A stretch of 64,000 bases of DNA from Aureicoccus marinus. Its GTDB lineage: Bacteria > Bacteroidota > Bacteroidia > Flavobacteriales > Flavobacteriaceae. The notes below the pieces were generated by a model. The model saw only the letters and a list, made by a program, of their open reading frames with translations. It did not search any database and was not told where the DNA came from. Positions 47,640-64,000 of this stretch are shown piece after piece; positions within the stretch are counted from its first letter, which is position 1; each line of letters starts with the position of its first letter. Location: positions 1,785,088 through 1,849,087 of the forward strand of contig NZ_MQVX01000001.1 in NCBI RefSeq assembly GCF_002954325.1, in the 5' to 3' direction. A program made the position numbers and the translations under genes.

Positions 47640-47733
47640 ATAAACTTTCTTAGTGCATAGCTTAAACGCTAAAGATACGCAAAGCCGTGTTTCCTTATAT
47701 GTCTTTCTCGAAAGGGATTTGTTACTTTACATT

Positions 47734-48876
47734 ATGAATAAAAAAGGGAGCGAGCGCATCTTTATTTCTTTAGGAAGTAACCAGGGAAACCGGTGGGCTC
47801 ATCTGCAGCGCACGATCTTCATTTTAGAAGAAAAAGCGGGTTCTGTCTTACAGTGCTCTCCGGTTTATGAAAACCCAGCGGTGGGCTTTGACGGAGCTCC
47901 TTTTTACAACTGCTGTGTTGAACTAGAAACCGAGCTCAATCCCCAAGCCCTTTTGGAGGTTTTGTTGGAATGCGAAAAGGAAGCCGGACGACTGCGTTCG
48001 GGCCGGGGTTATAGCGATCGCCCCATTGATTTGGATCTTCTTTTTTACGGCGATCAACGGATCGAAAACGAAGCCCTGGAAGTCCCCCATCCCCGATTAC
48101 ATAACCGGGGTTTTGTACTTCAGCCCCTTGTCGATTTGGGCATAGGAAGCTACCACCATCCGAACTTAGAAAAGCCCGTCGCTGAACTGGCCGATAATGC
48201 CCCGGACAAAGGAGACCTGCAAGTTGTCGATGGACGTTTGTTCTGCTCTGTAACCGAGATCTTTGATCAACTAGATTACCTGGCCATTGAAGGCAATATT
48301 GGGGTCGGAAAAACCTCCCTGACCAAAAAACTAGCCGCCGATCACAACGCCAGGCTGCTGCTGGAACGCTTTGAAGACAACCCTTTTTTACCCCCTTTTT
48401 ACAAGGATCCGCAGCGATATGCCTTCCCACTCGAAATGTCCTTTTTGGCCGACCGATTTCAACAACTGCAAGAACAACTGCCCCAGAGTTCCCTCTTTAG
48501 CGACCGGGTCTTTAGCGACTACCACCTGAGTAAATCCCTGCTTTTTGCACAGGTGACCCTGGAAGCCGATGAACTTCGCTTGTACAAAAAGCTCTATACC
48601 CTGATGCAGCAATCTTTGCCCCAACCTCAGCTGTATGTGTACCTGCAACAAAACACAGAACGCCTACTCGAAAACATCAAAAAGAGAGGGCGCAGCTATG
48701 AACAAGAGATCAAACCGGACTACCTCCAGCAAGTAGAAGAGGGCTACCGCTTGTTTTTGCAGCAGTACCCCGGACCTAAATTACTCATCGATGTAAGCGA
48801 TTTGGATTTCATGGAAAATCCAGCGGATTACCACTACATCATTCGGGAGATCGGCGTCTTTTTATCGAAGAAATAA
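47734..48876 (+). CDS. folK: FolK - deoxynucleoside kinase fusion
   Basis: A 380-residue two-domain protein. Residues 1 to about 165 are 2-amino-4-hydroxy-6-hydroxymethyldihydropteridine diphosphokinase (folate synthesis): ISLGSNQGNRWAHL, RGYSDRPIDLDLLFYGD, PHPRLHNRGFVLQPL. Residues about 182-380 are a dNK: P-loop EGNIGVGKTSL (186-196), LLERFEDNPFLPPFY, DRVFSDYHLSKSLLF, RGRSYEQEI. The ATG at 47734 is chosen over a longer in-frame extension from 47653. The joining of folate and deoxynucleotide enzymes fits the ThyA/DHFR theme; such fusions occur in Flavobacteriia. Confidence 0.94.
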   Translation: MNKKGSERIFISLGSNQGNRWAHLQRTIFILEEKAGSVLQCSPVYENPAVGFDGAPFYNCCVELETELNPQALLEVLLECEKEAGRLRSGRGYSDRPIDLDLLFYGDQRIENEALEVPHPRLHNRGFVLQPLVDLGIGSYHHPNLEKPVAELADNAPDKGDLQVVDGRLFCSVTEIFDQLDYLAIEGNIGVGKTSLTKKLAADHNARLLLERFEDNPFLPPFYKDPQRYAFPLEMSFLADRFQQLQEQLPQSSLFSDRVFSDYHLSKSLLFAQVTLEADELRLYKKLYTLMQQSLPQPQLYVYLQQNTERLLENIKKRGRSYEQEIKPDYLQQVEEGYRLFLQQYPGPKLLIDVSDLDFMENPADYHYIIREIGVFLSKK

Positions 48877-52897: not shown

Positions 52898-54073
52898 ATG
52901 AGCCCTATTAAGGATCTTGCCAAAAAACAAATAATGGAAAGACCCATAGTCACGTTTACCAAAACCACACATAGGGGTACGATGGTCCTTATAATCAGTT
53001 TTAAGTATGATCATGAGCTTAAGGAGTATATAAAGAAATTCAACGGCATTACTTGGAGCAGCTCCCTGGGATGTTTTCACATACCCTTCAGCAAAGAGGT
53101 TACCAATACCCTTTTTAAATACTTGAGACGCAAAGGATACTTTATTGATTACTCGGCGCTAAAACCTAAAAAAGCATCCTATTCCACCCATTACCAGGTG
53201 CAAAAAGCCGCTCTTGGTTCTGAGATAGCAGATGAGGTTAAAATGGACATCAACTCATTAAAAAAATGGATGGCCCAGAAAAGATACAGTATGAATACCA
53301 TCAACACTTATGAAAGCATGCTTTTGGTGTTTTTTCGTTTTATGTATCCGAAGAAATCGAATGACATCAATGAAAAAGATGTTATAGCCTTTAATGCCGA
53401 TTATATTCTGGCCAATGGATTTTCTTATACTTATCAAAACCAAGCGATAAACGCCCTTAAACTCTTCTTTAGACATTTAGACGCAGGACACACACTACCT
53501 CACCAGATAGAACGACCTAAAAAATCAAAGAAATTACCAGAAGTCCTAAGTATTGATGAGGTAAAGTCAATATTAGAAAACACGACAAATCTTAAACACA
53601 AGACCCTGTTAAGCCTTCTTTATTCCTGTGGCTTAAGAATTGGTGAAGCCTTAAAACTATCGATTAGAGACATTGATCTTAACAGAAGGTTTATGCATGT
53701 AAAATCTGCTAAAGGGGCTAAGGACCGGTATGTTCCGGTACCCACCCAAATGATCATCCTACTCAATCGATACATGAACAGTTACAAACCAGGGCACTAT
53801 GTGTTTGAGGGGCAAAAAGGTGGTCGTTATACCGATGTAAGCGCAAGACAAGTTTTAAAGCGATCAATAGAAAAGGCCGGAATCAAAAAGAATGTAACCC
53901 TGCATACTTTAAGGCATAGCCATGCCACTCACCTATTAGAAAATGGTACGGATCTAAGATTTATTCAAGAACTTCTGGGCCACAGTAGTCCCAAAACAAC
54001 CATGATTTACACACATGTGAGCACCACTAGTTTGGATAAAATAAAAAACCCCTTTGATGATTTTGAGCTATAA
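52898..54073 (+). CDS. Tyrosine recombinase at the head of the cassette array
   Basis: A 391-residue tyrosine recombinase. Residues 1 to about 90 form an extra basic N-terminal region (ITWSSSLGCFHIPFSKEV) absent from XerC/D. A core-binding SAM-like domain covers about 115-205 and the catalytic domain about 213-391. The active-site set is complete: Arg247 (CGLRIGEAL), Lys272 or Lys275, His336-x-x-Arg339 (LHTLRHSHATHLL), His362 (LLGHSSP), Tyr371 (TTMIYTHV). I see no insertion before the HxxR box like that of classical integron integrases. It lies on the same strand as, and 78 bases before, the first cassette boundary. It most likely inserts and excises the cassettes, although an IntI-independent XerC/D-like role cannot be excluded. 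Confidence 0.9.
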   Translation: MSPIKDLAKKQIMERPIVTFTKTTHRGTMVLIISFKYDHELKEYIKKFNGITWSSSLGCFHIPFSKEVTNTLFKYLRRKGYFIDYSALKPKKASYSTHYQVQKAALGSEIADEVKMDINSLKKWMAQKRYSMNTINTYESMLLVFFRFMYPKKSNDINEKDVIAFNADYILANGFSYTYQNQAINALKLFFRHLDAGHTLPHQIERPKKSKKLPEVLSIDEVKSILENTTNLKHKTLLSLLYSCGLRIGEALKLSIRDIDLNRRFMHVKSAKGAKDRYVPVPTQMIILLNRYMNSYKPGHYVFEGQKGGRYTDVSARQVLKRSIEKAGIKKNVTLHTLRHSHATHLLENGTDLRFIQELLGHSSPKTTMIYTHVSTTSLDKIKNPFDDFEL

Positions 54074-54099
54074 AATAAAGAGCAACCTTTTTCATCGGT

Positions 54100-54160
54100 T
54101 ATATTCCTATTTTAGAAGTGTATAGATGTGTTTTACATTTATATAAACAAGTTGGCAACC
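54100..54160 (+). other. Candidate attI site (integrase-proximal insertion point)
   Basis: Between the integrase stop (54073) and the first cassette gene lies GTTGGCAACC (54151-54160), with the expected crossover between 54151 and 54152. The sequence to its left has no long inverted repeat, unlike the cassette-end sites, as expected for an attI rather than attC. Exact limits cannot be seen. Confidence 0.5.
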
Positions 54161-54175
54161 ATTTAAAAAGAGAAA

Positions 54176-54769
54176 ATGAAACACATCCTAACAATTTTCG
54201 GACTTCTATTCTGTGCGATAGTTTTTGGACAGACAGATAGTAATATATGGTCTGACACTGATACCATTTCGACAGAACTGTACGAATTTCAAGTTCCAAC
54301 AAAATGGAGAAACTTTGGAAAAATGATGGGTGGAGGACAAGGACCAGAACAATTTTTCGAAGCGAGTGGACAGGGACTCCCAATAAGTTATAATGGAGGA
54401 CCTGTAAAAGTTTCTGTTTTTCTTGTAAAGATGGATCAATCAAAGAATCTCAAGAGTGCAAAAGAAAGTGTAATAAGTGGCTACTTTGAAAACCCAGACA
54501 GAGTTTTTAAAAAGGATAAAGATTACCAAGAAGAAAGCTTTATTCTTTCGGATAAAAACGAAGCCATTTTGCTAAACACAAGATTTTACAGGAAATCAAA
54601 AGGACTAAATCAAAGTCGCTTTGATTTGGCGACTTACTCTAAAAAACATAAGACTGCATATATGTTTACAGTTTCTATTCAATACGTTGACGACACTTAT
54701 GATTTCGAGACTGAAAATGACCTGAAAGATTATGCGAAAAAACTGTATTCAACCTTTATGTGGAACTAA
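54176..54769 (+). CDS. Cassette 1: secreted protein of unknown function
   Basis: A 197-residue protein with a signal peptide ending AIVFGQ. The mature part is soluble and mixed alpha/beta with no membrane segment: FQVPTKWRNFGKMMGGGQG, then ILLNTRFYRKSKGLN and a C-terminal FETENDLKDYAKKLYSTFMW. I do not recognise a family. It is the sole gene of cassette 1, 24 bases inside the cassette start, and is followed closely by the attC-like site at 54778. It would be the first cassette to be read from any promoter near the integrase. Confidence 0.75.
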   Translation: MKHILTIFGLLFCAIVFGQTDSNIWSDTDTISTELYEFQVPTKWRNFGKMMGGGQGPEQFFEASGQGLPISYNGGPVKVSVFLVKMDQSKNLKSAKESVISGYFENPDRVFKKDKDYQEESFILSDKNEAILLNTRFYRKSKGLNQSRFDLATYSKKHKTAYMFTVSIQYVDDTYDFETENDLKDYAKKLYSTFMWN

Positions 54770-54777
54770 AAAACGAT

Positions 54778-54840
54778 TTGCCAACATGGTGTATAGTGCA
54801 TACCCTTCGGGATACGCACCATACACAAACCGTTGTAGCC
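54778..54840 (+). repeat. attC-like site ending cassette 1
   Basis: R'' TTGCCAAC (54778-54785) is the exact reverse complement of the cassette 1 start GTTGGCAA. The inner arms GTGTATAGTGCATACCC and GGGATACGCACCATACAC pair with two mismatches and one extra base. Crossover is between G54832 and T54833 (GTTGTAGCC of cassette 2). Confidence 0.88.
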
Positions 54841-54850
54841 AATTTGAGAA

Positions 54851-55495
54851 ATGAGCAATAAAGGAAAAAGACATAACAAAAGGTGGCTGATTTCACGACT
54901 TAAAACTTCTGGAAGTAAAAGACGATATGTGAATGATGGTGACTACTCGGATACCCGAAACACGAAAAAGAATAAGAATACGAACTGGGACGAATTGCCA
55001 ACCTTTGAGGGCATGGGACAAAGTTTTAAATTCTTTAATAGTAAAATAAATTATGGATTACTTATTCGATTCTTAAGAGGTAAAAATGGTTCCAATTGGA
55101 ATGATGTACAAAAAGAAGTTTCGGAAAGAATACCAAGTAACTTAAGCGAGTATAAGGATTGTTTAAAATGGTTTGTTGCCGATTTAATCGAAAAACGGGA
55201 AGACGGACTTTGGGATAAAAGAGAACAGAAATATTTACTCCTTAATCCCAATGAACCATATGATTGGAACATACATATCTCTAAAGAGTTTTATGTTGAC
55301 CCTGACTCAAATGAATTAGTCAAAATTGCGGATTTTCCTTCCAATAGAAAAACCAAAGGAATGAGTAGTGAAGAATTGCGGAAATTCAGAGAGACTGAAA
55401 AGAATTTGAAATTAAAAGAAAAGCAATTCAAAATATTGGAACAGAAAAAAGTTGAACGAGAAGTTGAAGTAATTTTAAAAAACAAAGAAGAATAA
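54851..55495 (+). CDS. Cassette 2: basic cytoplasmic protein of unknown function
   Basis: A 214-residue protein, no signal peptide, strongly basic N-terminus (MSNKGKRHNKRWLISRLK) and a Lys/Glu-rich coiled-coil tail (about 170-214). The middle has a WNDVQKEVSERIPSNL helix, a GLWDKREQKYLLL segment and NEPYDWNIHISKEFYVDP. No family recognised. Its basic start and coiled coil could suit nucleic-acid or ribosome contact, but nothing specific is visible. Sole gene of cassette 2. Confidence 0.72.
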   Translation: MSNKGKRHNKRWLISRLKTSGSKRRYVNDGDYSDTRNTKKNKNTNWDELPTFEGMGQSFKFFNSKINYGLLIRFLRGKNGSNWNDVQKEVSERIPSNLSEYKDCLKWFVADLIEKREDGLWDKREQKYLLLNPNEPYDWNIHISKEFYVDPDSNELVKIADFPSNRKTKGMSSEELRKFRETEKNLKLKEKQFKILEQKKVEREVEVILKNKEE

Positions 55496-55502
55496 AAACT
55501 GT

Positions 55503-55557
55503 CTACAACAAGGTGTAAAAATGCATTAAAACGCATTTTACATTAAACGTTATGGCC
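55503..55557 (+). repeat. attC-like site ending cassette 2
   Basis: R'' CTACAAC (55503-55509) matches the reverse complement of the cassette 2 start GTTGTAG (7 of 7). Inner arms TGTAAAAATGC and GCATTTTACA pair with one bulge. Crossover is between G55549 and T55550 (GTTATGGCC of cassette 3). Confidence 0.86.
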
Positions 55558-55571
55558 AAGCAAAAACAACA

Positions 55572-56063
55572 ATGAGAATGACATACATACTTTCAATTTT
55601 AATTTTCTTCAGTTGTGGACAACCAATTGTGACTGAAAACGAATCTGAAGTGACAAGCATTTCAGAAGTTACTCAAAATGGTCAATTAAGAACGGGATGG
55701 TATTTCTTAAGCGATAAGGATAATGGAATTGAAAAGACCCTTAACGGAACTAAAGAAATCTACTATTTGAACCCTTCGCCAATCGTGACAGCTGACAACT
55801 TCACTGAACTCGAGATTTACCAAAGCAATTATGGCGATTACGGTATGACAATTCGACTTGACAAAAAAGGGACTAAACAATGGAGCATTGCAACAGGCAA
55901 ATCAATTGGAAAAAAATTAGCCTTGGTTATTGACAATGAATTGTACTTCTTGCCTCAAGTAAACGCCCAAATTGATGTTGGTATAACTGCTTTAAATCGT
56001 GGTGACTTGTCAGAAACAGAGTTGAAGGCGATTAAAAATATAATTGAAAAAGAGAAAAAATAA
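55572..56063 (+). CDS. Cassette 3: lipoprotein with a SecD P1-head-like domain
   Basis: A 163-residue protein with a lipoprotein-like leader (FFSC, Cys15). The C-terminal part (about 85-160) resembles the head of SecD/SecF P1: GTKQWSIATGKSIGKKLALV, then IDNELYFLPQVNAQIDVG. Outside the SecDF complex, such single-head lipoproteins occur in Bacteroidota with unknown roles. As the only gene of cassette 3 it is not linked to a translocase here. The start could also be the second Met; 55572 is kept because it gives the leader. Confidence 0.68.
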   Translation: MRMTYILSILIFFSCGQPIVTENESEVTSISEVTQNGQLRTGWYFLSDKDNGIEKTLNGTKEIYYLNPSPIVTADNFTELEIYQSNYGDYGMTIRLDKKGTKQWSIATGKSIGKKLALVIDNELYFLPQVNAQIDVGITALNRGDLSETELKAIKNIIEKEKK

Positions 56064-56072
56064 AAAAGGCCA

Positions 56073-56149
56073 GGCCATAACAATGGCTAAAAAACATAGA
56101 CCTAACCAAACAAACCGTTTCTACGCTTTTTAGCCGGAACGTTGTAGCC
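56073..56149 (+). repeat. attC-like site ending cassette 3
   Basis: R'' GGCCATAAC (56073-56081) is the exact reverse complement of cassette 3's start GTTATGGCC (9 of 9). Inner arms GGCTAAAAAACATAGA and TCTACGCTTTTTAGCC pair with two mismatches. Crossover is between G56141 and T56142 (GTTGTAGCC of cassette 4). Confidence 0.88.
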
Positions 56150-56170
56150 AATGTGAAAAAACGAACGTGA

Positions 56171-56965
56171 ATGAACAAAACAATATTTGAGATTACCAAA
56201 ATGGACTGTCCTTCGGAAGAGAATCTAATCCGAATGAAATTGGACGGAATTTCGAGTATTGAAAATTTGGACTTTGATATTCCAAACCGAAAACTGACCG
56301 TTTTTCATAACGGAGAAATTGACCAAATCGAACAGTCAGTTCTGGAATTGAATTTGGGCGGTAAGAAAATCTCGACAGAACAAACTGACCAAACGGAATT
56401 TAAGGAAACTACAAACCAGAAAAAACTACTCTGGACAGTACTTGCAATAAACTTCGCCTTTTTCCTAATCGAGATGACAACAGGACTCATTTCAAAATCA
56501 ATGGGATTGGTGGCTGACAGTTTGGATATGCTTGCCGACAGTTTCGTTTACGGCATTAGCTTGTTTGCAGTTGGCGGAACCTTGATTAGAAAAAAACGGA
56601 TTGCCAAGATTGCAGGATATTTCCAAATAACACTTGCGATTGTCGGATTTGTAGAAGTGTTGAGAAGATTTTTAGGAGCGGAAAAACTACCTGATTTCTC
56701 GACAATGATAATCGTTTCGATTTTCGCCCTTATTGCAAACGGAATTTGTTTGTATTTACTTCAAAAGTCAAAAAGTAAAGAAGAAGCTCATATGAAAGCA
56801 AGCATGATTTTCACTTCAAATGACGTGATCATCAATTCAGGTGTAATTACGGCTGGTGTTTTGGTCAATTGGTTGAATTCAAATAAACCTGATTTGATTA
56901 TCGGAACAATCGTTTTTGGATTAGTAATTCAAGGCGCAATAAGAATATTAAAACTTGGAAAATAA
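56171..56965 (+). CDS. Cassette 4: HMA-domain cation efflux (CDF) transporter
   Basis: A 264-residue membrane protein with an N-terminal heavy-metal-associated-like domain (residues 1 to about 70; FEITKMDCPSEENLI has a single Cys in place of the usual CxxC). A CDF/CzcD-type transmembrane region follows (about 80-264). The GLVADSLDMLADSFVYGISL helix has the first metal-site acidic set, and SNDVIINSGVI stands where CDF proteins usually have the second. It is short compared with full CDF exporters (about 300-330) and lacks the cytoplasmic C-terminal domain. It probably exports a divalent metal such as Zn or Co. Confidence 0.82.
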   Translation: MNKTIFEITKMDCPSEENLIRMKLDGISSIENLDFDIPNRKLTVFHNGEIDQIEQSVLELNLGGKKISTEQTDQTEFKETTNQKKLLWTVLAINFAFFLIEMTTGLISKSMGLVADSLDMLADSFVYGISLFAVGGTLIRKKRIAKIAGYFQITLAIVGFVEVLRRFLGAEKLPDFSTMIIVSIFALIANGICLYLLQKSKSKEEAHMKASMIFTSNDVIINSGVITAGVLVNWLNSNKPDLIIGTIVFGLVIQGAIRILKLGK

Positions 56966-56971
56966 AAACAC

Positions 56972-57168
56972 TGGCTACAACACTGTATATAGCAAATAGG
57001 GCGTTCGGTGGTTAACGAAAGCTCAGTGCTACTTACAAACACCGCCAAATCGTTGATTTGGCTTTTAAAATGGATAAAATAAAAACAAAATACAACGCTT
57101 TGGCTCAGTGTAAACTTGAAAGGTTAGTCCTTTCTACTGCCCTACTTGCCATATACTAACCGTTGTGC
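56972..57168 (+). repeat. Long attC-like site ending cassette 4
   Basis: R'' TGGCTACAAC (56972-56981) is an exact reverse complement of the cassette 4 start GTTGTAGCCA (10 of 10). The outer part of the stem pairs TGTATATAGCAAATAGGGC with GCCCTACTTGCCATATAC. The 197-base centre holds an inner 8-bp hairpin (57044-57051 with 57055-57062, GCCAAATC/GATTTGGC) and two copies of GCTCAGTG (57021, 57103). Crossover G57162/T57163. Confidence 0.84.
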
Positions 57169-57182
57169 TTCATACAAGAAAA

Positions 57183-57818
57183 ATGTATATACCAAAACAC
57201 TATAATGGAAAAGATAAGCAAGAATCGATCGCTTTTATGAAGCGATTCAATTTTGGAACGATTATTACCTCAATCGACAATATACCTTTTGCAACTCATC
57301 TTCCCTTTATCATTGCTGAAAGAGATAATGAAATAATTATATCATCTCACTTTTCAAAAGCCAATGAGCATTGGAAACATATAGAATCCAATGAAAGTCT
57401 AATAATTTTCTCCGAGCCACACGCTTATATCTCTCCAAAGAATTATGTAAAACAAGAAAATGTTCCAACCTGGAATTATATTTCCGTGCATGCATATGGC
57501 AAGGCAAAAATTAAAGGCAATCCAAAAGAAGTTACTGAAATGTTAGAGCATATGATGGATGACTTTGATCCCGATTACAAAAAACAATGGAATTCGATTT
57601 CAGATGATTACAAAACGAGAATGGCTAAAGGAATTGTAGCTTTTGAGGTTCAAGTCTCTAAGCTACAGTCTAAAGAAAAGCTTAGTCAAAATAAGATGGA
57701 AACGGAAAGAAAATCAATAATCAAATCATTGTCAAAAAGTAAGACAACTAATGAGAAAATAATTAGTGAATACATGAAATTGAATGAACTAAACACAACA
57801 AAACCTAAACTGCATTGA
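57183..57818 (+). CDS. Cassette 5: PaiB-like FMN-binding protein
   Basis: A 211-residue protein of the FMN-binding negative-regulator / PaiB family: MYIPKHYNGKDKQESIAFMK, ATHLPFIIAERDN, SHFSKANEHWKHI, FSEPHAYISPKNY, PTWNYISVHAYGKAKI. The flavin-binding segments are all present. An in-frame GTG at 57165 would add six residues but lies inside the recombination site, so the ATG at 57183 is used. Family members bind FMN and are proposed repressors or oxidoreductases; here it stands alone. Its last codons run into the R'' arm of the cassette end. Confidence 0.88.
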   Translation: MYIPKHYNGKDKQESIAFMKRFNFGTIITSIDNIPFATHLPFIIAERDNEIIISSHFSKANEHWKHIESNESLIIFSEPHAYISPKNYVKQENVPTWNYISVHAYGKAKIKGNPKEVTEMLEHMMDDFDPDYKKQWNSISDDYKTRMAKGIVAFEVQVSKLQSKEKLSQNKMETERKSIIKSLSKSKTTNEKIISEYMKLNELNTTKPKLH

Positions 57819-57847
57819 AACGCAGTTTAGCCGAAACGTTGGCAATA
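57793..57847 (+). repeat. attC-like site ending cassette 5
   Basis: R'' ACACAAC (57793-57799) matches the reverse complement of the cassette 5 start GTTGTGC in 6 of 7 positions. Inner arms CTAAACTGC and GCAGTTTAG pair perfectly. The R'' arm lies inside the 3' end of the PaiB gene. Crossover G57838/T57839 (GTTGGCAATA of cassette 6). Confidence 0.85.
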
Positions 57848-57890
57848 ATTAAAAGAAACTGAAAATCTAAAATAATAAGCCTGCTAAAAA

Positions 57891-58877
57891 ATGAAATACT
57901 TCTCTGCAAATCTATACGTAAAAATGCTTAACTGTGCCATTGCAGAGGGGATGGATAAAAATGAGTTCGAGAAACTACAAACACCCTTGAGTAAGATTAA
58001 CGAAATTCAAGCGGTGCCAGCCGAAGAGTTTTTTGAATTGCACGAATGGCTAGATAACGAACTTGGGCCTGGCTTTGGTGTAAGGGTTGGCCAGCAGATG
58101 AAAATTGAAGACTACGGTGTACTGGGATTATCGTGGCGAACTTGCTCGTGGGCTGGTGAAATCTTTGAACGTAGTGAACGCTACTTCAAACTTTTGTCTG
58201 ACACCTTTATGTGGCAAATTGTTGAATCCAATGGTATTTCGGAAGTGAGGCTTAATAGAGAGACGCATCGAAGGGGTTTAGAGTTATCTACCGAAGCCAG
58301 TCTTTCAGCAACGGTTGTGGTAATGCAAGCTGTAACCGAGAAGAACATTCGCCCCATTCAGGTCTCCTTTAAACATGGCCCACCAAGCAATATGGAGCAT
58401 CACAATAAGGCTTTTCAATGCGAAATTCTGTTTAACCAAGAGCATTATTCGATTTCTTACAGAACCAAAGATTTACATTCCAGAACAGCAAAAGCTGATA
58501 AAAGCATCAATCGGTTCTTAGTAGAACGCGTGCAAGAAGAAACTGAGAACTTAGAAATAGCTGGTAACAAATTGGTTTTTGAATTGAACGAAATCATTAC
58601 GGATGCTCTTCCAAGTGGAATTCCGAGTGTTGACCATGTGGCCGAACTCATAGGAATGAGTAGGAGAACGCTAACCCGAAGACTTTCTGAAGCTGGATTT
58701 ACCTTTAGAAATTTGGTTAAAGCCAAACAACAAGAAATTGCAAAAACTTTATTACACGACAATTCGCGCAGTATAGCCGAAATTGCTTTTGAAACAGGTT
58801 TTTCAGAGCAGAGTGCATTTAATCGCGCCTTCAAAAGCTGGACTGGACTTTCTCCCTTGCAATATCGAAAAAACTAG
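57891..58877 (+). CDS. Cassette 6: AraC-family transcriptional regulator
   Basis: A 328-residue regulator. An N-terminal arabinose-binding-like (pfam12625-type) effector domain covers about 20-190: DYGVLGLSWRTCSWAGEIFE. A C-terminal AraC helix-turn-helix pair covers about 235-328 (GMSRRTLTRRLSEAGFTFR, then SIAEIAFETGFSEQSAFNRA and the FKSWTGLSPLQYRK end). It is the first gene of the largest cassette and is followed by 633 bases without a clear gene, then an operon it probably controls. Confidence 0.9.
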   Translation: MKYFSANLYVKMLNCAIAEGMDKNEFEKLQTPLSKINEIQAVPAEEFFELHEWLDNELGPGFGVRVGQQMKIEDYGVLGLSWRTCSWAGEIFERSERYFKLLSDTFMWQIVESNGISEVRLNRETHRRGLELSTEASLSATVVVMQAVTEKNIRPIQVSFKHGPPSNMEHHNKAFQCEILFNQEHYSISYRTKDLHSRTAKADKSINRFLVERVQEETENLEIAGNKLVFELNEIITDALPSGIPSVDHVAELIGMSRRTLTRRLSEAGFTFRNLVKAKQQEIAKTLLHDNSRSIAEIAFETGFSEQSAFNRAFKSWTGLSPLQYRKN

Positions 58878-59510
58878 CCCGTTCTTCCTTTGTGAAGGAA
58901 ATCAAATGAGCTCAATAAGGATATATACTTTCTAATTGTTACCAAACTTGATATAACTAAGTCAAACCCCTTCCTAGAAATTTTCATAAAATCACATTCC
59001 CCCTTCTCAGTGGGGAGGATTTTAACACACCCCTATTCCGATCGGAATAGAATAACGAATTCTTCTCTAAGTATTTCACAACGAAGAAATTGAAGTATAA
59101 AAATTCCGAAGCAGTCTCCAATTTTTATTGAAATTGCTTTGTTCTGCTTTACCATTCTCGCCAAGACAATGGACTTAATTATACCTAGCATAAGTGCATT
59201 TATTTTTACACGCTTGGCTCAAAGTATCAAAACATTGGCGTTTTCAGTCAAGTTCTAGAGCTGCGTAATCTTCACTTTTACATCATAATTTAAAACAAGG
59301 ATAAAATGAACTACAGTTACAAGCTTCTTTTAGACTATGTCTTTCTATTATTTCTGTATAGCTATCAACGAGAAGATCGTTTTTCAGTATCGAATGTCAG
59401 ACAGACTCAACAGATAGAATCAAGATCTAAATCCACTGAGGTTTCGGCTTTCAGTGGCGTTTCAAAACCACATCTCATCCAGGCTTTTTTCAATTAATCC
59501 CCCTCAAATC
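58878..59510 (+). promoter_or_regulatory. AraC-operon intergenic region with a perfect 18-bp palindrome
   Basis: No convincing gene. A perfect palindrome CTATTCCGATCGGAATAG lies at 59033-59050. A 63-codon open frame at 59306-59497 looks non-coding to me. The remainder is AT-rich. Because it sits between a regulator gene and its probable target operon, the palindrome is a candidate operator, though AraC proteins usually use direct repeats, so a different regulator or a structural role is possible. Confidence 0.45.
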
Positions 59511-60008
59511 ATGGAAATTTCATTCAAAGCAATCAGCATATTTCTAGCAATTATTCTTACCGGCCTGTCGGCAGGGCTGTTTTATGGTTGGCAAGTATCT
59601 GTAATTCCAGGCACCAAAAAGATACTTGATATTTACTACTTAGAAACCATGCAGTCGATAAACAGAGCCATCTTGAATCCTGCCTTTTTTGCCAGCTTTT
59701 TCGGAAGTCTCATTTTTCTAGTGCTAGCAAGTATTGTGCATTACGGCACTAATACTAGTGTTTTTGTACTACTTGTTGCCTCCACAATCATTTATCTCAT
59801 AGGTACGTTTGGTGTTACTGCTTTTGGCAATGTACCGCTTAACAATCAACTCGACGCACTTTCGCTGTCAGAACTAAATATCAACGAGTTAAAGGACTTT
59901 CGGCTTGAGTATGAACTAAAGTGGAACAAGCTGCACTTGATTCGGTCAGTTTTTGGAGTACTGTCCTTTTCATTGGCACTTCTAGCGCTCTTTTTTCAAC
60001 ATAAATAA
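59511..60008 (+). CDS. Cassette 6: DUF1772 / anthrone-oxygenase-like membrane protein
   Basis: A 165-residue protein with four membrane helices (about 5-25, 50-75, 82-100, 140-162). The DUF1772 signature is visible in GLSAGLFYGWQVSVIPG, AILNPAFFASFFGSLI and VTAFGNVPLNNQLD. The family includes anthrone oxygenases of quinone biosynthesis; most members are uncharacterised. The ATG at 59511 gives the usual start; an upstream extension to 59454 is not family-like. First gene of a run of five genes with short gaps. Confidence 0.85.
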   Translation: MEISFKAISIFLAIILTGLSAGLFYGWQVSVIPGTKKILDIYYLETMQSINRAILNPAFFASFFGSLIFLVLASIVHYGTNTSVFVLLVASTIIYLIGTFGVTAFGNVPLNNQLDALSLSELNINELKDFRLEYELKWNKLHLIRSVFGVLSFSLALLALFFQHK

Positions 60009-60052
60009 TCACTCAACCCCTGTATTTATTCATTATTAAAAATATAAAAATC

Positions 60053-60655
60053 ATGGCATATTTTAGCTATTTAGACGAGAACTCAGACATTACAGACATC
60101 ACCTTTCATGATCGCCTGCGCTTGGGACCACTAGATAAAGCCTCACAAGCAATTATGCGAGGCAAATCAGAATTTACTGAAGCAGAACGCGAAATCATGG
60201 CAGCCTATGTATCAGGCCTCAACGCGTGTTCCTTTTGCTTGGGGTCGCATACTGCTGTCGCAGAACTATTTGGCATTGATCCTTCGCTCATAGAGCAATT
60301 GGTAGAAGATGTGGAAACAGCACCTATTGACGAAAAATTAAAACCTGTTTTCCAGTATTTAAAAAAGCTGACGCTTTCACCAAGTAAAATCTGGGAGCAA
60401 GATGTAGAAAAGGTAATTAAGGTTGGGTGGAGTGAAGAAGCGCTACATCAAGCTATCGTGGTAGGTTGCCTATTCAATTTTTACAATCGATTGCTCGATG
60501 GACATGGCGTAAAAGGAAACAAAGCCATTTACAAGTTTGGTGGTAATCACCTCTTTAAAAATGGGTACGGAGTGCCTTGGTTCATAGGCCTTATCAAGAA
60601 TGTAATCAAGAAAAGTAAACTCAAAAAGCTGCAAGAGTTCGAAGAGGCAGCATAA
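60053..60655 (+). CDS. Cassette 6: AhpD-like / carboxymuconolactone decarboxylase family peroxidase
   Basis: A 200-residue protein of the 'peroxidase-related' AhpD-like branch. The CxxCxxxH motif is CSFCLGSH (about 57-64), with LSEFTEAEREIMAAYVSGLN-type sequence before it and AIVVGCLFNFYNRLLDG after it. The redox-active cysteine pair and His suggest hydroperoxide reduction. It lies 44 bases after the DUF1772 gene and is probably co-transcribed. Confidence 0.88.
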   Translation: MAYFSYLDENSDITDITFHDRLRLGPLDKASQAIMRGKSEFTEAEREIMAAYVSGLNACSFCLGSHTAVAELFGIDPSLIEQLVEDVETAPIDEKLKPVFQYLKKLTLSPSKIWEQDVEKVIKVGWSEEALHQAIVVGCLFNFYNRLLDGHGVKGNKAIYKFGGNHLFKNGYGVPWFIGLIKNVIKKSKLKKLQEFEEAA

Positions 60656-60683
60656 TTCTTTACACATATTAATTCAAAACAAA

Positions 60684-61523
60684 ATGAAAAAGAACATTTT
60701 AGTAATTGGGGGCACTGGAAAAACAGGTCGCCTTGTAGTAGAAAATCTGACCAAACAAGGACACAATGTTCGTTTGGGAACAAGAAAAAATTCTCCAACT
60801 TTTGATTGGGATAAACCTGAAACCTTTGCCGAAGCTCTCCAAGGAATGGATAGAGCCTACATTGTATACTATCCTGATTTGGCTATACCTGGAGCAAAAG
60901 AGTCTATTCAAGCTTTGGCCAATACAGCTTTGTTAGCTGGATTAGAAAAAGTGGTATTGCTTTCTGGTAAAGGAGAAAAAGAGGCCGAAGCCTGTGAGCA
61001 AATAATTGCCAAATCAGGACTTAACTACACCTTGGTTAGAGCTTCTTGGTTTAACCAAAACTTCAGTGAAGGAGCCTTTACAGGTTATATCATGTCTGGA
61101 GTATTGGCCTTACCTATGCCAGAAGCTAAAATTCCATATACCGACACCAAAGATATTGCCGATATAGTTTCAAAAGTATTGCTAGATGATAGCTATAATG
61201 GACAAACCATAACCGTAACTGGCCCTGCTAAATTGACCTTCAGAGAAGTAGCAGAAATCATTTCTAAGGCTATAGGTAGGAAAATTCAATACCAGCCCAT
61301 TTCAATGGCCGAATTCAAATCTAGCTTGGAAGCTGCACGACTTCCTGAACCCGTTATTTGGCTCTTGACTTACTTGTTTACCGAAGTATTGGGACATTCA
61401 GAAAATCAGACCATTTCTCATGACGTTGAGAAAATTCTGGGTCGCTATCCCATCACTTTCGAAGAATACGCTAAAGAAGTATCTGCCATTGGTACTTGGA
61501 ATCAAATTGAAGCTGGAATATAA
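60684..61523 (+). CDS. Cassette 6: NmrA-like NAD(P)-binding reductase
   Basis: A 279-residue Rossmann protein with the motif NILVIGGTGKTGRLVVENL at residues 4-22. NmrA-type segments include LGTRKNSPTFDWDKPETF, VVLLSGKGEKEAEA, LVRASWFNQNFSEG and PYTDTKDIADIV. Such proteins act as NADPH-sensing regulators or quinone reductases (QorB-like). Placed between the AhpD-like and di-haem peroxidase genes, a quinone- or redox-related role is likely but inferred. Confidence 0.88.
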   Translation: MKKNILVIGGTGKTGRLVVENLTKQGHNVRLGTRKNSPTFDWDKPETFAEALQGMDRAYIVYYPDLAIPGAKESIQALANTALLAGLEKVVLLSGKGEKEAEACEQIIAKSGLNYTLVRASWFNQNFSEGAFTGYIMSGVLALPMPEAKIPYTDTKDIADIVSKVLLDDSYNGQTITVTGPAKLTFREVAEIISKAIGRKIQYQPISMAEFKSSLEAARLPEPVIWLLTYLFTEVLGHSENQTISHDVEKILGRYPITFEEYAKEVSAIGTWNQIEAGI

Positions 61524-61578
61524 TTCAAAAATGGCTGCTCAACAAATTGAGTAGTCATTATACTTTTTCCATAAAATC

Positions 61579-62676
61579 ATGCAGAAATATTATACATACC
61601 TTATCATTTTGCTCATGCTTACATTGATAATGAGTTTTAGCAAACTTGAAATCGTTGCAGACCGATACACTGGCTTAAGCCCTTTGCCATTTTCTGCATC
61701 TGCACCAAAAGACAATCCTATTACAGATGAAAAAATAGAGTTAGGCAAACTGCTTTTTTTTGACCCCATTTTATCGGGAAACAACAAGATTTCCTGTTCC
61801 TCCTGTCACTCACCTGAAAAAGGATTTACGGATGGCTTAGATAGGTCAGCTGGTTTTTTGGATGGAACAAAAACCAAGCGAAATGCTCCCACGATCTTGA
61901 ACGCGGCATTTAATGGATTGGATACTGATGGAAATATGAATCCAACACACAGCCCTCAATTTTACGACAATAGAGCAATGAGTCTCGAAGAACAATGCAT
62001 GGGACCACTGCTTAGTCCTGATGAAATGAAAGGCCCAGAATTATCTGCGCAGGAATACATAGCTGTGCTAGAAGAAAAAGTGTCAAATATTTCAGCTTAT
62101 CGCATGCTGTTTTACCAGGCTTTTAACGATTCAGTAATTTCAATTGAAAATATCGCTAAGGCAATCGCCACATACGAGCGTACGCTTATAACTCCAAATT
62201 CGCCTTTTGACAGCTACATGAGAGGAGATGAAAACGCTATGTCGGCTATTCAAGTTAGGGGAATGGAAGCTTTTGTTTCCAGGGGATGTGTCAGTTGTCA
62301 TTCTGGACCAATGTTTAGTGACTACAAATTGCATGTGTTGGGAGTGGAGGCTCATCCCGGTGTATATCCTTATGACAAGGGAGATGGAAACTATGCGTTT
62401 AGAACAACAACATTACGCAACTTAAACTATACCGCACCTTATATGCACAATGGCATGCATCAAACCATTGAAGAGGTAATGCACTTTTACGAGCGTAAGC
62501 AAAGCCGACATCAACAAGTACCAAACAGAGCGTTGGCTCCAGAATTCAAAGACTTAAAATTGAATCCCCTTACACGATCTAAGGTGGATGACATTATTGC
62601 GTTTTTAGAAGCATTAAACGATCCCGATTTCGATCAAACCATTCCTGATAGTGTTCCAAGCGGGTTACCCTTCTAG
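61579..62676 (+). CDS. Cassette 6: di-haem cytochrome-c peroxidase (MauG/CcpA family)
   Basis: A 365-residue exported protein: a signal or anchor helix at residues 5-22, then two c-type haem sites, CSSCH (about residues 74-78) and CVSCH (about 234-238), as in MauG and bacterial cytochrome-c peroxidase. NAPTILNAAFNGLD, MSLEEQCMGPLLSP and TLRNLNYTAPYMHNGMH (with the distal Met/His region) are family-typical. It likely reduces H2O2 or oxidises a partner in the periplasm. It is part of the five-gene run of cassette 6. Confidence 0.9.
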   Translation: MQKYYTYLIILLMLTLIMSFSKLEIVADRYTGLSPLPFSASAPKDNPITDEKIELGKLLFFDPILSGNNKISCSSCHSPEKGFTDGLDRSAGFLDGTKTKRNAPTILNAAFNGLDTDGNMNPTHSPQFYDNRAMSLEEQCMGPLLSPDEMKGPELSAQEYIAVLEEKVSNISAYRMLFYQAFNDSVISIENIAKAIATYERTLITPNSPFDSYMRGDENAMSAIQVRGMEAFVSRGCVSCHSGPMFSDYKLHVLGVEAHPGVYPYDKGDGNYAFRTTTLRNLNYTAPYMHNGMHQTIEEVMHFYERKQSRHQQVPNRALAPEFKDLKLNPLTRSKVDDIIAFLEALNDPDFDQTIPDSVPSGLPF

Positions 62677-62748
62677 TTAATTACAAAAAAAATATTTTGA
62701 AGAATACTAACTAAAAATAGCCTGTACTTCAAAAAAACGAGACTAGAT

Positions 62749-63189
62749 ATGAGAAAAATAATTGGTTTTAAAACTGCAATCCTTGCGAGCTTATTCATTC
62801 TAGGAATGCTTGCTATATTTCATACTGCTATAGTAATTGGGATACTATTTTTTGACTATGTACCGATAGATTTTTTGTGGGGAGGACAAATAAAAACAGA
62901 AGCACAATTATTAAATTTTGAAATTGTTTCATTGCTAACTACAGTCATTTTTGTTTTTCTTTTATTCATACGATCAAAATGGCTAAATCTACCCAAATTA
63001 TTGGGTGTCACAAGAGTTGCAATGTGGGTGTTATTTATCTTTTTTTCATTAAATACAATTGGGAACGTACTGGCGATAACTACGCTTGAAAGAATGGTTG
63101 CAATTGTCTCCGGAGTGTTAGCTCTTCTTTTTTTGAGGATTGCCATAGAAAAAAAGGGTGATAACGTTTTAAAAACAAATCAGCCATAA
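62749..63189 (+). CDS. Cassette 6: small four-helix membrane protein, unknown function
   Basis: A 146-residue membrane protein with helices at about 9-32, 55-75, 87-108 and 112-132. The loop VPIDFLWGGQIKTEAQLLNF after helix 1 is its most distinctive part. No family recognised with certainty. It is the last gene before the cassette end site. Confidence 0.7.
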   Translation: MRKIIGFKTAILASLFILGMLAIFHTAIVIGILFFDYVPIDFLWGGQIKTEAQLLNFEIVSLLTTVIFVFLLFIRSKWLNLPKLLGVTRVAMWVLFIFFSLNTIGNVLAITTLERMVAIVSGVLALLFLRIAIEKKGDNVLKTNQP

Positions 63190-63264
63190 AAATTGAAAAA
63201 CAGCAACTCTTTAAATAGATTCACATGAAAGCATGAAAATGCATTTTAAAATAGAATAAAAAAC

Positions 63265-63402
63265 TATTGCCAACATTGTGTATGAGCAATAGCAGGTTAA
63301 GTATTAATTTGAAACAAAGAAACTTTAAATTAAGATCAGTACTAACTGACAATTTGGTGGTTTGAAATCCGCTACTGCTCATACACGAAATCGTTATGCT
63401 TA
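63265..63402 (+). repeat. attC-like site ending cassette 6
   Basis: R'' TATTGCCAAC (63265-63274) is an exact reverse complement of the cassette 6 start GTTGGCAATA, 5.4 kb upstream (10 of 10). Inner arms GTGTATGAGCAATAGC and GCTACTGCTCATACAC pair with one mismatch. Crossover G63393/T63394 (GTTATGCTTA of cassette 7). Confidence 0.88.
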
Positions 63403-63416
63403 ATAAGGAAGAGCCT

Positions 63417-63947
63417 ATGGAAGTAAGGTTAGGTAAAGAGCTAGACGTTTGTCAAATTTTAGACATTCAGAAATACTGGCTGAATCAAAAACCAGATAAC
63501 AAAGAAGGCTTTCTATTTGGAGAACCCTACACATATAATGATCTGATCGAATTAGTCTTACTTAAACAACTAGCGGTCGCCACTGTTGAAAATATAGTTT
63601 ATGGGTACTTCCTATTTGATGATTATTCGAAAAACAGCACCACATCTAGTTATTTAGTCTTCATTCAAGATTTAATAAATAAAAAGCAACTCAATAAATT
63701 TGAAAAAATTTGCCCTCGAGCACAAATTGCAATTCACAAATCGCATTTAGGACTAAATATTTCAAAAAAACTAACGCTATTTCTAATTGATCAGTGTAAA
63801 GATAGGTTTGACACCATTTTTTCTGCGGTATCTAAAAAGAATAAGAAAATCAATGAACACATTACAAACGGATGGATAGTTGTAGGAGAAAATGACGATT
63901 TGTATTTTGTAACAATGAGATTAAATACTAAGCATAACACCAACTAA
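63417..63947 (+). CDS. Cassette 7: GNAT-like acetyltransferase
   Basis: A 176-residue protein with a GNAT-type layout: MEVRLGKELDVCQILDIQKY at the N-terminus, GYFLFDDYS as strand 4, and a CoA-binding-like QIAIHKSHLGLNISKKLTLF loop and helix (about residues 105-125). The pyrophosphate loop is only weakly conserved, so an acetyltransferase call is likely but not sure. An in-frame ATG at 63396, three bases inside the cassette, is an alternative start. The 3' end overlaps the R'' arm (63929-63938). Confidence 0.68.
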   Translation: MEVRLGKELDVCQILDIQKYWLNQKPDNKEGFLFGEPYTYNDLIELVLLKQLAVATVENIVYGYFLFDDYSKNSTTSSYLVFIQDLINKKQLNKFEKICPRAQIAIHKSHLGLNISKKLTLFLIDQCKDRFDTIFSAVSKKNKKINEHITNGWIVVGENDDLYFVTMRLNTKHNTN

Positions 63948-64000
63948 AAGCCACGGGCTGAACAACCACATCCGAAAAGCCCGCGTCTCCTAGTTGAGAA
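63929..64000 (+). repeat. attC-like site ending cassette 7, cut by the window edge
   Basis: R'' TAAGCATAAC (63929-63938) is an exact reverse complement of the cassette 7 start GTTATGCTTA (10 of 10). Inner arms CAACTAAAAGCCACGGGCT and AGCCCGCGTCTCCTAGTTG pair with mismatches. The expected GTT core site lies just past base 64000, so the array probably continues. Confidence 0.82.

Follow-up and report, generated by a model that had tools for sequence, protein, structure and literature searches.

A cassette array beside an Xer-type recombinase in Aureicoccus marinus and a probable integron-like system recurring in Bacteroidota

What system brought together the seven co-oriented units that follow a tyrosine recombinase gene in Aureicoccus marinus, each running from a GTT start to an AAC end and a hairpin? 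The earlier note on this 64-kb stretch of the genome (hereafter the window, whose positions serve as coordinates throughout; L-numbers label the loci compared with it) had described an integron-like array with its own type of recombinase. The observation of a seven-unit array was confirmed, and the interpretation is supported by the window itself, by other genomes, by a plasmid breakpoint at G^TT, and by an exact duplication at an attI site. With a probability of roughly 0.86, we consider the recombinase, the attI-like site, and the array to be an integron-like gene-capture system that recurs in Bacteroidota and uses G^TT, a folded bottom strand, and an Xer-type recombinase devoid of the insert specific to integron integrases (IntI).

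All seven G^TT-bounded units were located, with the same numbers of contiguous complementary bases between the start and the end of each unit as counted before (Table 1). When ten positions per unit were compared, 64 of the 70 own start/end positions matched, far above the mean of 42.7 over the 5040 assignments of ends to starts. This value was attained by two assignments only, the true order and the one with units 2 and 4 exchanged, the tie being due to the identical starts of these two units. Across the junctions, where both arms belong to one site, 4, 7, 7, 5, 6, and 5 of the 10 positions matched, in agreement with the proposed loss of pairing there; the own-unit R'/R'' matches thus exceed both the shuffled and the across-site pairs. 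Our own hairpin scanner, which was used for site finding, detected nine closed units in the 20 kb around the array, of which five are flanked by hairpin sites on both sides, compared with means of 0.6 and 0.0, respectively, in five dinucleotide shuffles of the same 20 kb. In a comparison with 200 shuffles, the bottom strand surpassed every one of them in folding at sites 1, 3, 5, and 6 and did not do so at site 2; at sites 5 and 6, folding is good for the top strand as well. No Rfam family matched on the array at the gathering threshold.

The proposed one-strand orientation and AT-richness of the array hold as well, as the main reading frame lies on the plus strand in every unit, and the GC content is 0.366 in the array and 0.380 in the recombinase gene versus 0.473 in the preceding core. 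Two other statements of the note had to be adjusted. The rule of mostly one gene per unit is true for six of the seven units and fails for unit 6, whose six genes encode an AraC regulator, anthrone-oxygenase-like, CMD-like, NmrA-like, and di-haem MauG-like proteins, and a 146-residue protein. No inner site was seen in this unit (57838-63274), which is either a multi-gene cassette or several cassettes with decayed inner sites. The array had also been placed at 52898-64000; the first of these positions is the start of the recombinase gene, the array proper begins at 54151, and it continues beyond an assembly gap, a run of N that starts at 64001 at the window edge and cuts the site of unit 7. Past this run, three further closed units (10, 9, and 10 bases) extend to approximately 71 kb in window coordinates.

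The recombinase consists of a small alpha/beta domain (residues 17-84), a core-binding domain (120-194), and a catalytic domain (216-376), with no IntI-specific insert. In a phylum-wide search of 296 Bacteroidota genomes, 95 had a relative of it at 1e-40; some of these relatives lack the N-terminal extension. We called a locus anchored if a GTT no more than 250 bp downstream of the gene closes on a hairpin site further on with at least eight bases, and counted loci with at least 2.5 kb downstream, leaving out 47 shorter ones. An anchored first cassette was present in 22 of the 37 loci with the extension (0.35 expected from shuffles) and in two of the 40 loci without it (0.55 expected). Here the extension was judged by length, and therefore the 37 include one locus (L146) with an unrelated extension. 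In one of the two extension-less anchored loci, L076, the N-terminal motif is still present and has an inner deletion; the other, L056, has no such motif. Among the 15 extended loci without an anchored unit, eight have verified sites further downstream and two have an array on the 5' side of the gene. These loci had been selected as high-ranking recombinase matches; in 20 further loci, hand-picked from the phylum-wide matches for score or long contigs, the first cassette was anchored in 17. One of the other three has 224 bp of sequence left, and the two remaining have four closed units flanked by sites on either side. Taking both sets together, 39 of the 57 loci tested have the start of their first cassette no more than 250 bp from the recombinase gene.

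Own-unit pairing was also seen when sites on the 3' side of the recombinase were chosen without regard to it, by hairpin strength and AAC/GTT context, in 124 loci comprising the window, relatives, named genomes, and plasmids. Matches at six or more of seven positions were observed in 54 of 100 own-unit pairs, some of which are not true neighbors because of missed sites, compared with six of 182 within-site pairs and 20 of 526 other pairs from the same locus. The attI-like region shows a semi-conserved AT-rich motif before the first GTT in 47 anchored loci, reading ATATAACNAG^TT or GTTTATCCAATTG^TT in many loci other than the window. Inverted repeats with arms of at least seven bases occur there in 16 of the 47 loci versus 7.1% in shuffles, a weak signal. 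In L061, L064, L068, L069, and L108 the array lies on the 5' side of the gene and points away from it, as in classical integrons; the recombinases of L061, L068, and L108 have no N-terminal domain. Eleven loci were read on that side for units near the gene, and anchored ones were found in L064 (10 bases), L069 (10), and L061 (9).

Thus, arrays accompany such recombinases elsewhere, in many Bacteroidota families, and the system is an integron-like one of phylum-wide occurrence. A shared chromosomal address is unsupported, since mutS was not found in L038-L077 and a tRNA gene was present in only one of the 13 relatives' loci scanned. In L046, L052, L054, L192, and L204, the contig ends soon after the recombinase gene, as expected if repeated sites break assemblies, and arrays are probably under-counted in draft genomes. 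N-extended recombinases were also observed in metagenome-assembled genomes labeled Spirochaetota, Firmicutes, and Undinarchaeales (L103, L109, and L112), where they group weakly with IntI; L103 has one anchored unit, and mis-binning of these three is possible.

Related loci, compared with one genome per species, vary in their cassettes, with breaks at G^TT, and the fixed gene order that would have spoken against cassettes was not seen among them. In particular, plasmids of Chryseobacterium sp. SNU WT5 and C. oryzae are 95.8% identical over the recombinase and attI up to ATAAACAAGTT and then diverge at G^TT; the scanner found closed cassettes in the former plasmid and none in the latter. L056 contains two copies, 100% identical, of an 849-bp stretch that runs from one GTT to the next, one copy at attI and the other 7 kb downstream, in unrelated flanks. 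Cassette 4 of the window has DNA matches of 83-85% in L078, L056, and L199, and one of 75% over 413 bp in L189; those to L078 and L056 begin within 4 bp of G^TT and stop 10 bp past the closing AAC. An IS110-family transposase and a group II intron lie within a Chryseobacterium plasmid array (L158:13272-17054); members of both groups of elements target attC sites.

The 212 cassettes have a median length of 782 bp. Of the 203 with a frame of at least 60 amino acids, 198 carry their longest gene on the array strand. We scanned 80 of the 162 distinct cassette proteins. Among the families listed are cation efflux (three), lincosamide-nucleotidyltransferase-like (two), ParE toxin (two), a beta-lactamase family (one), restriction enzymes (HaeII-like and PvuRts1I-like), methylases, AbiU (one), and PD-Lambda-2 (one).

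The mismatches within the stems indicate which strand folds. In 212 closure-verified sites, from 66 of 144 loci, A·C mismatches on the top strand outnumber G·T by 366 to 62 under a stem-arm comparison score that gives equal weight to the two types of transition mismatch; the balance is toward A·C in 168 sites and toward G·T in six. A few of these sites are in the extension-less L117, L136, L144, and L156 and probably occur there by chance. As site copies within one array are not independent, we also counted by locus and obtained 57 leaning to A·C, none to G·T, and nine ties. A top-strand A·C is a G·T wobble on the bottom strand, and thus the bottom strand has been kept able to fold. Arrays on the 5' side, present in five of the six loci examined (21 units; no unit in the sixth), show the reversed sign, G·T 42 versus A·C 5, and hence the polarity follows the array.

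The bottom strand is likewise the folding strand in integrons, where IntI reads extrahelical bases with residues that include the I2 helix and the beta-4,5 strands, according to the pertinent part of PMC3053210, and where the choice of strand depends mainly on the first extrahelical base, according to that of PMC2727003. Of 192 folded sites scored at the first break of the stem, 91 show a symmetric 1x1 mismatch there, nine a single base on the L'' side, and ten a single base on the L' side; conserved extrahelical bases were not seen at this first break. When four class 1 cassette ends were folded in the same way as a control, three (two of them identical in sequence) showed the single L''-side bulge, and one gave no clear hairpin. 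The absence of such bases fits together with the absence of the IntI domain.

Table 1. Recombinase gene, attI-like site, cassettes, and attC-like sites in the window; each cassette begins at its GTT, and bases are contiguous complementary bases between its own start and end
Feature	Positions	Strand	Description
Tyrosine recombinase	52898-54073	+	391 aa; Pfam, NCBIfam, alignment of 47, structure models
attI-like site	54110-54153	+	just past recombinase stop; inferred crossover ...TATATAAACAAG^TT, GTT at 54151; semi-conserved motif
Cassette 1	54151-54785	+	AAC at 54783; gene 54176-54769, 197 aa, no family; 8 bases
attC-like site 1	54776-54841	+	cassette 1 end and cassette 2 start; fold z: bottom -4.28, top -1.47
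Cassette 2	54832-55509	+	AAC at 55507; gene 54851-55495, 214 aa, no family; 7 bases
attC-like site 2	55500-55558	+	weak folding, bottom z -1.02
Cassette 3	55549-56081	+	AAC at 56079; gene 55572-56063, SecDF P1-head-like; 9 bases
attC-like site 3	56070-56152	+	fold z: bottom -2.79, top -1.37
Cassette 4	56141-56981	+	AAC at 56979; gene 56171-56965, cation-efflux family; 10 bases
attC-like site 4	56970-57171	+	long loop
Cassette 5	57162-57799	+	AAC at 57797; gene 57165-57818, FMN_bind_2, frame overlapping both end sites; 6 bases, 8/10 in all
attC-like site 5	57790-57850	+	fold z: bottom -3.24, top -2.64
Cassette 6	57838-63274	+	AAC at 63272; 5.4 kb, six genes; 10 bases
attC-like site 6	63263-63404	+	fold z: bottom -4.12, top -3.67
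Cassette 7	63393-63938	+	AAC at 63936; gene 63396-63947, 183 aa, no family, frame overlapping both end sites; 10 bases
attC-like site 7	63929-64000	+	truncated by N run from 64001

Elsewhere in the window, a single 407-residue frame at 47653-48873 fuses an HPPK domain (folate synthesis) to a deoxynucleoside kinase domain, and a SAM-II riboswitch is located at 737-795 on the minus strand.

What kind of recombinase accompanies these arrays? Residues R247, K272, H336, R339, H362, and Y371, which we take to be the catalytic ones, are invariant in the alignment of 47. The best PDB match is XerA, and the NCBIfam XerA model is passed (231.5 versus 220). The IntI model TIGR02249 gives 209.1 bits in two stretches, against a cut-off of 265. 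None of the 60 family genomes passes this model, the matches omitting profile positions approximately 182-237, whereas four IntI proteins in three of the 14 control records pass it at full length. Similarly, the spacing between the catalytic Lys and His is 63 in the window protein, 63-66 in the 45 tree rows with the extension, all of which lack the insert, and 105 in the four IntI; it is 69 and 71 in the two other Xer-like proteins of the genome. In a phylogenetic tree with hand-chosen rows, the Bacteroidota recombinases (42 with and seven without the extension) lie on one side of a branch with support of 82-83, and IntI lie elsewhere. The two Xer-like genes of the window genome form a separate group with support of 100; the recombinase does not group with these chromosomal Xer proteins, as a Xer dimer resolvase (XerC/XerD) would. 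A phage origin was rejected, because none of the 64 phage records matched covered 80% of the recombinase.

The N-terminal domain is present in most, although not all, such recombinases in the tree, in an extension mostly of 70-115 residues. Residues 17-84 are possibly HARP/XPB-like. When the HARP model PF07443 was run on 118 Bacteroidota genomes, its three best places were the N-termini of these recombinases; the XPB_DRD model had no match in 118 Bacteroidota genomes, and a PDB profile search with the domain gave nothing useful for HARP by sequence. In fold comparison, eIF1/YciH scores nearly as high as the XPB damage-recognition, UvsW N-terminal, and HARP domains, the latter three of which bind forked or branched DNA. 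Pfam searches with N-terminal pieces yielded weak matches only; for the window protein these were TAF1D and BRAP2, and three of seven relatives matched DUF5710/DUF7397.

Three other explanations have to be weighed. The loci could be ordinary integrons in which a true IntI, a divergent member of the known family, has secondarily lost its specific domain. Such integrons would have in common with the arrays G^TT, attI, the attC logic, and bottom-strand folding; Bacteroidota are already among the phyla listed with integrons (in the lists of PMC8618304 and PMC2426708), an integron integrase is second among the PDB fold matches, and a tree constrained to unite the Bacteroidota recombinases with the IntI clade was not rejected (p-AU 0.435). 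Nevertheless, we find this explanation unlikely, given the failure of all family genomes to reach the cut-off that the IntI controls reach, the missing insert in every extended tree row, the rarity here of one-sided bulges like those of class 1 sites, and the extra N-terminal domain. By the same constraint test, independent origin from IntI is not shown, and the relationship may be one of convergence or of common origin.

It is far less probable that an attC cluster moved by another integrase has acquired the recombinase as a chance neighbor, for example a Xer-type dimer resolvase or a phage integrase. Xer-like relatives without the extension are indeed common, and 15 of the 37 extended loci have no anchored unit; a mere neighbor would, however, explain neither the closeness of the first cassette to the gene in 39 of 57 loci nor the AT-rich motif that recurs with the gene before G^TT, and the window genome has two Xer-like genes apart from this recombinase. 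Least credible of all is that the hairpins are terminators or dispersed repeats of the REP/MITE type among ordinary genes: the sites are palindromic and mostly intergenic, as such elements would be, but own-unit pairing, breaks at G^TT, exact duplication, and strand polarity are not expected of them.

For the integron-like system, the closed units, the attI-like motif, the hairpin polarity, the breaks at G^TT, and the exact duplication can be read directly from the sequence. From them we infer with high confidence that the neighboring recombinase moves the cassettes, and that it does so on single-stranded DNA; the cassettes would pass through circles. In the mechanism that we propose, the Xer-type tyrosine recombinase, without an IntI-specific domain, would recognize the folded bottom strand of a cassette end, and circular cassettes would be inserted by it at G^TT in the neighboring attI-like site. 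The N-terminal domain, possibly HARP/XPB-like, is predicted to take over the reading of the hairpin, which IntI accomplishes via extrahelical bases.

This system is also a candidate explanation of gene capture in Riemerella anatipestifer, as described in the relevant section of a 2026 report (PMC13148043). A single gene was taken up there without homology, with flanks of 27 bp on the 5' side and 140 bp on the 3' side, and was inserted beside a cdf gene. The fold of its 3' flank resembles that of attC; the same behavior was noted for two other genes, and the mechanism was reported as unknown. Common to both cases are the order Flavobacteriales, the attC-like 3' flank, and a cdf gene at the place of insertion; the difference is that the section names no recombinase. 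More tentatively, and at somewhat less than even odds, one may suppose a second, phylum-wide kind of integron. Its Xer-type recombinase would read hairpins of single-stranded DNA in the absence of extrahelical bases, with a HARP-type fork-binding domain in place of the IntI domain; the strand would be chosen through G·T wobbles that allow folding of the bottom strand only, and the same machinery would serve homology-independent single-gene uptake in Riemerella and its relatives.

The system is not described in the titles, abstract openings, and passages covered of the open PMC literature on integrons, cassettes, attC, Bacteroidota, and Riemerella, a scope that leaves subscription journals and preprints outside. 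The pertinent part of the IntegronFinder 2.0 paper gives one complete integron in Bacteroidetes proper, in Salinibacter (PMC9024848), and the list of 11 taxon-specific attC models in PMC8352920 has none for Bacteroidota. According to the corresponding section of PMC9668308, integron integrases carry a specific domain that survey tools require, and thus the present system should escape such surveys. If it is active, a major phylum harbors an extensive network of gene exchange that has so far been overlooked, and a second solution for recombining folded single-stranded DNA exists, by which it becomes testable which part of an integrase is needed. It would also provide a concrete candidate machinery for the unexplained Riemerella gene capture.

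Compared with integrons such as class 1 and the Vibrio superintegron, the loci analyzed here share G^TT in an attI adjacent to the recombinase gene, short cassettes of one orientation, complementarity of the own start and end (R'/R'') of each cassette, and a bottom strand that folds. They differ from them in the lack of the IntI-specific domain, by which a canonical integron is ruled out, in the conserved one-sided extrahelical bases of the attC stem, which were not seen here, and in the extra N-terminal domain of most recombinases. The layout is different as well, since the gene is directed toward the array in the majority of the loci tested, and five have the array on the 5' side.

With XerA and other Xer recombinases, the window protein has in common its closest structure and a passed family model, whereas the linkage to cassettes and the extra N-terminal domain set it apart. 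By description only, it may be likened to the 'Integron-like' subgroup of simple, Xer-related tyrosine recombinases (PMC8138268), for whose insert-less members the section on this subgroup does not describe arrays. Finally, the XPB damage-recognition domain, the UvsW N-terminal domain, and the HARP domain of SMARCAL1, to which the N-terminal domain was compared, sit on helicases, whereas the domain found here sits on a recombinase.

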